A program made the translations under genes and the position numbers. Below are positions 4,912-46,150 of a stretch of DNA of 64,000 nt, in pieces (the stretch's first letter is position 1; each line of letters begins with the position of its first letter). Origin of the DNA: Alphaproteobacteria bacterium (GTDB lineage: Bacteria > Pseudomonadota > Alphaproteobacteria > Micavibrionales > Micavibrionaceae); contig JAGRHC010000002.1 of NCBI GenBank assembly GCA_020445145.1, positions 1-64,000 on the forward strand. The letters run 5' to 3'. The notes beneath the pieces were generated by a model that saw only the letters and a program-made list of their open reading frames with translations, was not told the DNA's origin and ran no database searches.

Positions 4912-5598
4912 CTAGTGATAAGACCGCAGCAACCCCGCAAGCCGCCCCTGTATCTTCACGCGCTCCTGCTCAAGAACCCGCGGCTCATAATCATCATTCT
5001 CCGGCTCCAGAACAATCTTGCTCCCGGCCCGGCGCAATCGCTTGAGTGTCACATCCTGATCATCCACCAGAGCAACAACAATCGCTCCGTTCTCCGCCGT
5101 CTCGCAGCGTTGGATAATCACCGTATCCTGATCGAAAATCCCCGCCTTGATCATCGAATCCCCGTCGACTGTCAAAGCATAATGATCCCCGCGCCCGATA
5201 AACCCCGGCGGAACCTGAACACTCTCGCCTTCATCGCGAATAGCCTCAATTGGCGTCCCCGCAGCAATCCTTCCGCACAAAGGCACTTCCATAACCTGAG
5301 ACAACAGGGCCGCCTGCTGGGTTGCAGCAATTTCACGCGACAAATCCGCCACCGCGCTCCGGTCCTCGTCCTTGGGCCGAAATCCCTCCGGCAACCTCTT
5401 GATCTCAAGTGCCCGCGCACGGTGCGGCAAACGCTCAATATAGCCACGTTCAACCAATCCCGTAATAAGCCTGTGAATCCCGGACTTCGACTTAAGCCCA
5501 AGCGCCTCCTTCATTTCCTCAAAAGACGGTGGCACATCATCCCCCGACATCTTCTCATGAATATAAAGCAGCAAATCGCGTTGTTTCTTGGTCAGCAT
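4912..5598 (-). CDS. lexA: LexA SOS repressor
   Basis: Transcriptional repressor of the SOS regulon that self-cleaves on contact with RecA filaments. 228 residues: N-terminal winged HTH (about 1-65, with SKSGIHRLITGLVERGY), hinge, and C-terminal S24 peptidase domain. The cleavage site is Ala113-Gly114 in GRIAAGTP. The catalytic dyad is Ser148 (GDSMIKAG) and Lys186 (DVTLKRL). It is the last gene of the trpG-trpD-trpC-lexA series, separated from trpC by 93 bp that hold a GTTC-N7-GTTC SOS box, so it can be autoregulated independently of the trp genes. It converges with comEC across an 83-bp gap. Confidence 0.96.
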   Translation of the reverse strand: MLTKKQRDLLLYIHEKMSGDDVPPSFEEMKEALGLKSKSGIHRLITGLVERGYIERLPHRARALEIKRLPEGFRPKDEDRSAVADLSREIAATQQAALLSQVMEVPLCGRIAAGTPIEAIRDEGESVQVPPGFIGRGDHYALTVDGDSMIKAGIFDQDTVIIQRCETAENGAIVVALVDDQDVTLKRLRRAGSKIVLEPENDDYEPRVLEQERVKIQGRLAGLLRSYH

Positions 5599-5659: not shown

Positions 5660-5674
5660 GTTCTAGTTTAGTTC
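5660..5674. promoter_or_regulatory. LexA (SOS) box upstream of lexA
   Basis: Direct repeat GTTC, seven bases, GTTC (5660-5663 and 5671-5674), 62 bp upstream of the lexA start codon. This is exactly the operator form established for alphaproteobacterial LexA. A third GTTC follows at 5677-5680 with different spacing. It predicts negative autoregulation of lexA. No other copy was searched for systematically. Confidence 0.88.
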
Positions 5675-19757: not shown

Positions 19758-19766
19758 TGTGGATAA
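19758..19766 (-). promoter_or_regulatory. Perfect DnaA box upstream of ftsB
   Basis: TGTGGATAA on the plus strand is the exact complement of the consensus DnaA 9-mer TTATCCACA. It lies two bases after the stop of the YqgE-like gene and 116 bp before the ftsB start, in the same intergenic region as four GANTC sites. Confidence 0.6.
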
Positions 19767-19770
19767 AACT

Positions 19771-19873
19771 GAATCAAATGAACGTGTTGCACAAGATCGT
19801 TCTACTTATGTTCCGGTTAAATCATTGACTCAATTAGATTTTTCACCTTGACGCGATTCAGTGGATATGATTC
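19771..19873. promoter_or_regulatory. Cluster of four GANTC (CcrM) sites in the ftsB promoter region
   Basis: GANTC occurs at 19771-19775, 19827-19831, 19855-19859 and 19869-19873, all in the 127-bp gap before ftsB. About 0.4 sites would be expected by chance in 100 bp of even composition. A -35-like TTGACG is at 19848-19853, just upstream of two of the sites; no convincing -10 was found. Because a ccrM gene is present in this window, methylation-dependent expression is plausible. Confidence 0.6.
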
Positions 19874-19882
19874 TATATCCCT

Positions 19883-20194
19883 ATGAAGAAACTTGTGCAT
19901 AACACTTACGGTCTGCGCGAAAACGTCCTTGTATTGCTGGGCGTTTGCTTGGGTCTGTATTTTGGTTGGCACGCAGTTTACGGCGCCAGAAGTTTCTCCC
20001 AACTGGAATCCTTGCAGCACGCCCTCGTGCAGCGCGAATCTGCGCTGGATAGCATTTCAGCAGATCGCGAATCATTAGAGGCAAAAGTAAAGATGATGCG
20101 CCCCGGCTCCATCAGTCGAGATCTTCTTGAGGAGCAGGCGCGCTACGTGCTGGGCTACAAGCGTCAGGACGAACTGGTTGTCTTTGATAACTAA
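19883..20194 (+). CDS. ftsB: FtsB-like septum formation initiator
   Basis: Small bitopic cell-division protein that, with FtsL and FtsQ, activates septal peptidoglycan synthesis. 103 residues: a short cytoplasmic N-terminus, one membrane segment (about 15-34, VLVLLGVCLGLYFGWHAVYG), a coiled coil (about 37-75, QLESLQHALVQRESALDSIS) and a C-terminal block PGSISRDLLEEQARYVLGYK with the family's E-x-A-R-x-x-L pattern. Lies between eno and pdhA, the conserved alphaproteobacterial position. No good ribosome binding site is seen before the ATG. Confidence 0.88.
   Translation: MKKLVHNTYGLRENVLVLLGVCLGLYFGWHAVYGARSFSQLESLQHALVQRESALDSISADRESLEAKVKMMRPGSISRDLLEEQARYVLGYKRQDELVVFDN

Positions 20195-44561: not shown

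Positions 44562-46150
<1,589 letters not shown>

Follow-up and report, generated by a model that had tools for sequence, protein, structure and literature searches.

A conserved ftsB promoter with predicted cell-cycle methylation and DNA-damage inputs in an uncultured alphaproteobacterium

The window, a stretch of 64,000 nucleotides, comes from the genome (2.26 Mb, 93 contigs) of an uncultured alphaproteobacterium. It includes the local gene order eno, yqgE, ftsB, pdhA, in which ftsB occupies positions 19883 to 20194 of the forward strand and encodes a product matching the DivIC/FtsB Pfam family (E-value 1.2e-10). The start codons used here, including the ftsB ATG at 19883, are inferred. A single-protein scan of named genomes returned FtsB matches in three unclassified alphaproteobacterial MAGs only, with 47-48% identity. 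We compared the DNA upstream of ftsB in 87 genomes, including the window's own; 59 of these genomes, representing 38 genera, form the same-family subset. In the class-wide sample, 204 of 219 genera yielded an FtsB match, and 66 representatives outside the order were examined. The genomic background was 464 kb of host DNA, i.e. the 64-kb window and stretches of two other contigs totalling 400 kb.

The initial annotation of this locus reported a perfect DnaA 9-mer and four GANTC sites between positions 19758 and 19873, and we confirmed these coordinates in the sequence. The DnaA box, TTATCCACA, lies on the reverse strand at 19758-19766, 3 bp downstream of the stop codon of yqgE, and the GANTC sites start at 19771, 19827, 19855, and 19869, all upstream of the ftsB ATG. 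Three further parts had been overlooked: a LexA/SOS box in the promoter, a second DnaA box in ftsB, and three GANTC sites within the gene. Over its full length, the window has far fewer GANTC sites than expected (122 found versus 303 from shuffles), and the GANTC density in the 464 kb of host DNA is 1.94 per kb. Only two places in these 464 kb contain at least four GANTC sites per 103 bp, namely the ftsB and ccrM promoters, both of them within the window. With sites placed uniformly, the probability of one such cluster per 64-kb window is approximately 0.08, so density alone is moderately rare and not conclusive. This value, together with the over-representation of GANTC reported for intergenic DNA of CcrM-bearing bacteria (PMC3973325), is what can be said for a functionless arrangement, in which the GANTC cluster and DnaA box would reflect chance or a general intergenic enrichment. 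We consider such an origin highly improbable, since it is contradicted by GANTC positions that stay fixed in the 38 genera and also in the class at large. The decisive evidence against chance, as judged from the sequence comparisons, is thus the conservation of the sites rather than their density. Conservation in relatives was among the points on which the initial annotation had staked its proposal, and the proposal withstands the comparison.

The extent of this conservation can be quantified in several ways. The 120-bp regions preceding ftsB contain 231 GANTC sites in the 59 family genomes, corresponding to 32.6 per kb, versus 1.4-2.4 per kb in ftsB and its flanks. The commonest single GANTC position is common to 39 genomes, whereas in 500 shuffles no position was common to more than 4. 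A family-wide layout emerges with parts at fixed distances from the gene: a GANTC pair at about -112/-103, RCTTAG, a GTTC-N7-GTTC motif at -84, TTGANTC at -56, and a core composed of TTGAC near -35 followed by GANTC at about -25 and -14. Of the 38 genera, 35 have the core -14 site, 29 the dual core, 28 the -56 site, 27 the SOS box, and 23 the GANTC pair. The FtsB proteins themselves are merely 33-52% identical to that of the window in a 16-member alignment, indicating that the upstream conservation is not a mere consequence of recent divergence.

In the window, the core has the anatomy expected of a sigma-70 promoter. The -35 element, TTGACG (19848-19853, forward strand, as are all parts of the core), belongs to a TTGAC that is conserved class-wide; a GANTC in the spacer follows at 19855-19859, and TGATTCTAT at 19868-19876 carries a GANTC over the -10 region. 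Taking a 17-bp spacing from TTGACG, the -10 element would be TTCTAT, and the sites at 19855 and 19869 are then placed between and over these two hexamers, as in promoters of the GcrA/CcrM type. The spacer site lies at -28 here and at -25 or -26 in relatives, whereas GATTC at -14 is fixed in 54 of the 59 family genomes. The two core GANTC sites are consequently 14 bp apart in the window's promoter versus 11 bp in relatives, and a strict 11-bp dual-GANTC pattern misses the window's own promoter; we therefore widened the spacing to N4..7 for the search of relatives. With TTGAC-N4..7-GANTC-N4..7-GATTC we obtained 34 matches in 58 relatives, mostly at the known ftsB coordinates, versus 2 for the reversed control. 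Upstream of the core, the conserved distal GANTC at -56 takes the form TTGACTC (19825-19831, forward strand). A second sigma-70 promoter using this TTGACTC (-58) as its -35 element was considered and rejected, as no convincing -10 was found at 17 bp. The single TTAA in the ftsB promoter does not amount to a full CtrA site (TTAA-N6/7-TTAA).

Could these sites be kept for a reason other than methylation? At -14 the central base is always T, as expected if the site is also part of the -10 element that it overlaps, and this GATTC may be kept simply as -10 sequence. It could then be argued that the -14 site, perhaps along with the -25 site, is sigma-70 promoter sequence that happens to read GANTC, and that methylation plays no role. 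The other positions speak against this reading, which we regard as improbable: the central base varies at -25 (T in 16, A in 16, C in 8, and G in 2) and at -56 (C in 19, A in 15, T in 5, and G in 2) while the palindromic GANTC frame is kept, which is the pattern expected of methylation sites. Additional GANTC sites are conserved beyond the core, despite the general depletion of GANTC in the window.

The core is also present outside the order: 38 of 66 representatives carry TGATTC at a comparable distance from the start, and of these 37 have a -35 element and 27 a second GANTC 11-14 bp upstream. Its presence across the class indicates that the core is old. Among 26 of these representatives whose upstream DNA was inspected in full, none of the distal parts was evident. 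The distance between GATTC and the ATG is nearly constant (9-10 bp), which suggests a leaderless or nearly leaderless ftsB message; a search for RNA structure in the ftsB leader gave no signal (z = -0.29).

The factors expected to act on such a core are encoded by the host. A ccrM gene (44929-46038, reverse strand), whose product combines N6_N4_Mtase and RAMA domains, is the only such methylase gene found in the genome, and GcrA is encoded as well (PF07750, E-value 2.3e-43). The ccrM promoter and first codons (45953-46150, reverse strand) hold eight GANTC sites and TTGTCCACA, the densest cluster in the 464 kb; their core, TTGAC-GANTC-GANTC-GATTC, places three GANTC after TTGAC and is similar in layout to that of ftsB. 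GcrA binds methylated GANTC and recruits RNA polymerase, and mutation of GANTC cripples GcrA-dependent promoters (PMC3667746). In Caulobacter, promoters with a GANTC between -35 and -10 are activated 40-60 min into the cell cycle (PMC4287350), CcrM activates ftsZ and mipZ via GANTC (PMC3708114), and the CcrM targets named are FtsZ, MipZ, FtsN, and FtsE (PMC3973325). By analogy with the published GcrA/CcrM promoters, the ftsB core should be dependent on methylation and on GcrA.

The most distal conserved part links ftsB with ftsZ. In relatives it reads GANTC-N4-GANTC-RCTTAG, with the two GANTC spaced 9 bp apart, and in the window it is half decayed (GAATC AAAT GAACG, 19771-19784, forward strand). 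Searching 58 genomes for GANTC-N4-GANTC-RCTTA gave 35 matches, 20 before ftsB, 12 before ftsZ, and 3 elsewhere, versus 1 for the control. Within the order, the pair ranges over the window's family and one other family (6 of 7 genomes). In the DNA upstream of ftsZ, most family members show a perfect DnaA box, TTATCCACA, about 66 bp before GANTC-N4-GANTC-RCTTAG. The window's genome has half of the pair left at ftsB and has lost it at ftsZ, where the DnaA box is kept. The shared ftsB/ftsZ element, GAATCATTTGAATCACTTAG, provides a precise 20-bp bait for a common regulator. A second element, resembling GANTC..TTTGCAACAC, was observed before ftsB at three loci in other families and before ftsZ at four loci in the window's family.

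The motif GTTCTACTTATGTTC (19799-19813, forward strand), a GTTC-N7-GTTC conserved at -84, is located downstream of the distal pair and upstream of the -56 site. It is present at ftsB in 39 of 59 family genomes and 27 of 38 genera, and within the order it is confined to the window's family. The window also encodes LexA (4912-5598, reverse strand; TIGR00498, above cut-off), and the SOS box of lexA, GTTCTAGTTTAGTTC (5660-5674, forward strand), served as the reference for the ftsB box. GTTC-N7-GTTC is found upstream of lexA at 22 of 30 loci and, when scored strictly, upstream of recA at 16 of 30. With a matrix built solely from the boxes of lexA and recA, we obtained scores of 23.0 for the ftsB box, 24.4 for lexA, and 25.5 for recA, with no other site in this range in the 464 kb, and 30 of the 59 family ftsB promoters scored above the 99th percentile of shuffled controls. 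The sequence before ftsB, GTTCtacttatGTTC, is close to GTTCttgttatGTTC, a form found among Caulobacter SOS boxes (PMC12700426). By its sequence, the ftsB box is the same motif as that at lexA and recA. A purely cell-cycle promoter, with GTTC-N7-GTTC serving a factor other than LexA, would fit the position of the box away from the core and the lack of a report, among titles and abstracts on ftsB and LexA, of LexA control of ftsB; given the shared motif, the scores ranking with those of lexA and recA, and the similarity to the Caulobacter form, we find it unlikely. A combined search for the SOS box and TTGANTC across 385 genomes of the class gave scattered matches in 40 genomes, the window's promoter included. 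At one locus (L118), GTTC-N7-GTTC lies between a gene of unknown function and a divergent gene whose predicted start, LDLDSYFASVEQQ, is DinB-type polymerase-like.

The position of the box bears on how LexA would act. A LexA box over the core promoter is the usual arrangement for repression. The ftsB box is situated about 35 bp upstream of the -35 element at 19848 and does not overlap the core, making simple repression of the core unlikely; since the box cannot simply cover the core, its putative role would be to modulate the distal module. The GANTC pair may also mark a distal promoter under LexA repression, although no conserved -35 was found before the pair. We favour a model in which LexA damps the distal module in undamaged cells, giving this model and one in which LexA is needed for full expression roughly equal chances. 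In the latter, LexA would be an activator or co-activator in undamaged cells, such that LexA cleavage lowers ftsB expression and helps to halt division after damage. The activator-like position upstream of the -35 element suits this proposal, as does the dual role that LexA reportedly plays at recA of Rhodobacter sphaeroides; LexA is usually a repressor, and we hold activation to be possible but on the unlikely side.

The DnaA input is more variable. Searching for TTRTCCACA on either strand, we found a DnaA box before ftsB in 13 of 59 family genomes (8 of 38 genera), mainly at one of two positions. Four family genomes have it at -125/-126, a placement like that of the window; in eight relatives TTGTCCACA replaces the ftsB -35 hexamer; one genome has a box at both sites, and two have one at -49. 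In those relatives with TTGTCCACA at -35, the -25 GANTC is often shifted or lost. DnaA boxes are enriched approximately 100-fold before the gene, with 14 in 8.85 kb of upstream DNA versus 2 in 135.6 kb of neighboring DNA. The predicted DnaA input therefore appears to be recurrent yet not a fixed part of the promoter. The additional DnaA-box consensus within codons 4-7 of ftsB (TTATGCACA, 19894-19902, reverse strand) showed no sign of conservation in the compared relatives. Of the two inputs put forward in the initial annotation, that of CcrM is strongly supported by the sequence, whereas the case for DnaA is weaker.

Taken together, these data make it probable that ftsB is driven by a GcrA/CcrM-type cell-cycle promoter with distal DnaA and LexA inputs. 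In the proposed mechanism, RNA polymerase would recognize a sigma-70 core formed by the TTGAC -35 element, the spacer GANTC, and the second GANTC over the -10, and would start transcription at about the ftsB ATG. CcrM would methylate the GANTC sites, and GcrA would read the methyl marks and stimulate RNA polymerase. Passage of the replication fork would leave the sites hemimethylated, so that ftsB transcription would track the replication and methylation cycle. The distal module, comprising the GANTC pair common to ftsZ, the DnaA box in some genomes, and the LexA box at -84, would tune the core; it could co-regulate ftsB with ftsZ, and the DNA-damage response would alter ftsB output through LexA. 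Against this reading stand the absence of the DnaA box in most relatives and the state of the pair in the window's genome, half lost at ftsB and absent from its own ftsZ.

Several known systems resemble parts of this promoter. The analogy with ftsZ drawn in the initial annotation is apt, given that the host encodes CcrM and GcrA and that the module is common to ftsZ, although the host itself is not a Caulobacter. Like ftsZ and mipZ of Caulobacter crescentus (PMC3708114), ftsB is a division gene for which replication-coupled methylation is proposed as a timer, and ftsZ also has a GANTC between -35 and -10; unlike them, ftsB has two core GANTC sites, distal GANTC sites, a LexA box, and a putatively near-leaderless start. 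GcrA-dependent methylated sigma-70 promoters (PMC3667746) share with it a GANTC in the RNA polymerase footprint and the presence of both GcrA and CcrM, but the conserved dual GANTC with its 11-bp distance is nearly exclusive to ftsB among the relatives searched. With the alphaproteobacterial LexA/SOS regulon it shares a GTTC-N7-GTTC box identical in form to the lexA and recA boxes of these genomes; what differs is the gene, which belongs to the essential divisome and not to repair or to small inhibitors like SidA, and the placement of the box outside the core. A cell-cycle master regulator, CtrA, has been reported to control ftsB in Hyphomonas neptunium (PMC7200025), whereas the window's ftsB promoter is devoid of TTAA-N6/7-TTAA.

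The statement in the initial annotation that no report of DnaA or CcrM control of ftsB was known agrees with our own search, in which no report was found that treats ftsB together with GANTC, Caulobacter, and CcrM, or that treats CcrM together with the septum formation initiator; the one report found on ftsB and GcrA is that on CtrA in Hyphomonas (PMC7200025). In the portions of the literature consulted, the GcrA targets named do not include ftsB. A survey of GcrA in 13 species, one per order, discusses ftsZ, ftsN, and ftsE in the parts consulted and describes GcrA targets as thought to be rapidly rewired between orders; ftsB does not figure in those parts, and the supplementary tables of the survey may list it (PMC7987155). 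The multi-input ftsB promoter is, to judge from these comparisons, real and conserved, its putative inputs are of known kinds (GcrA/CcrM promoters and SOS boxes), and the combination of inputs and gene appears to be new in the searched literature.

The known cases of division control by methylation are mainly ftsZ, mipZ, and ftsN in Caulobacter relatives, and a methylation-type ftsB promoter kept in many families of the class suggests that ftsB is a conserved target not highlighted in the GcrA survey texts consulted. A broader and more tentative proposal is that ftsB is a class-wide target of the CcrM/GcrA clock through its core and, at the family level, a point where LexA and the ftsZ-type pair are integrated, forming a damage checkpoint on divisome transcription that operates without a dedicated inhibitor. 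The supply of division protein would then be set by both replication state and DNA damage, and the LexA box, if bound by LexA, would connect an essential divisome gene directly with DNA damage. Three further GANTC sites, starting at 20006, 20036, and 20069 (20006-20073 in the window), were observed inside ftsB, within its first 190 bp.
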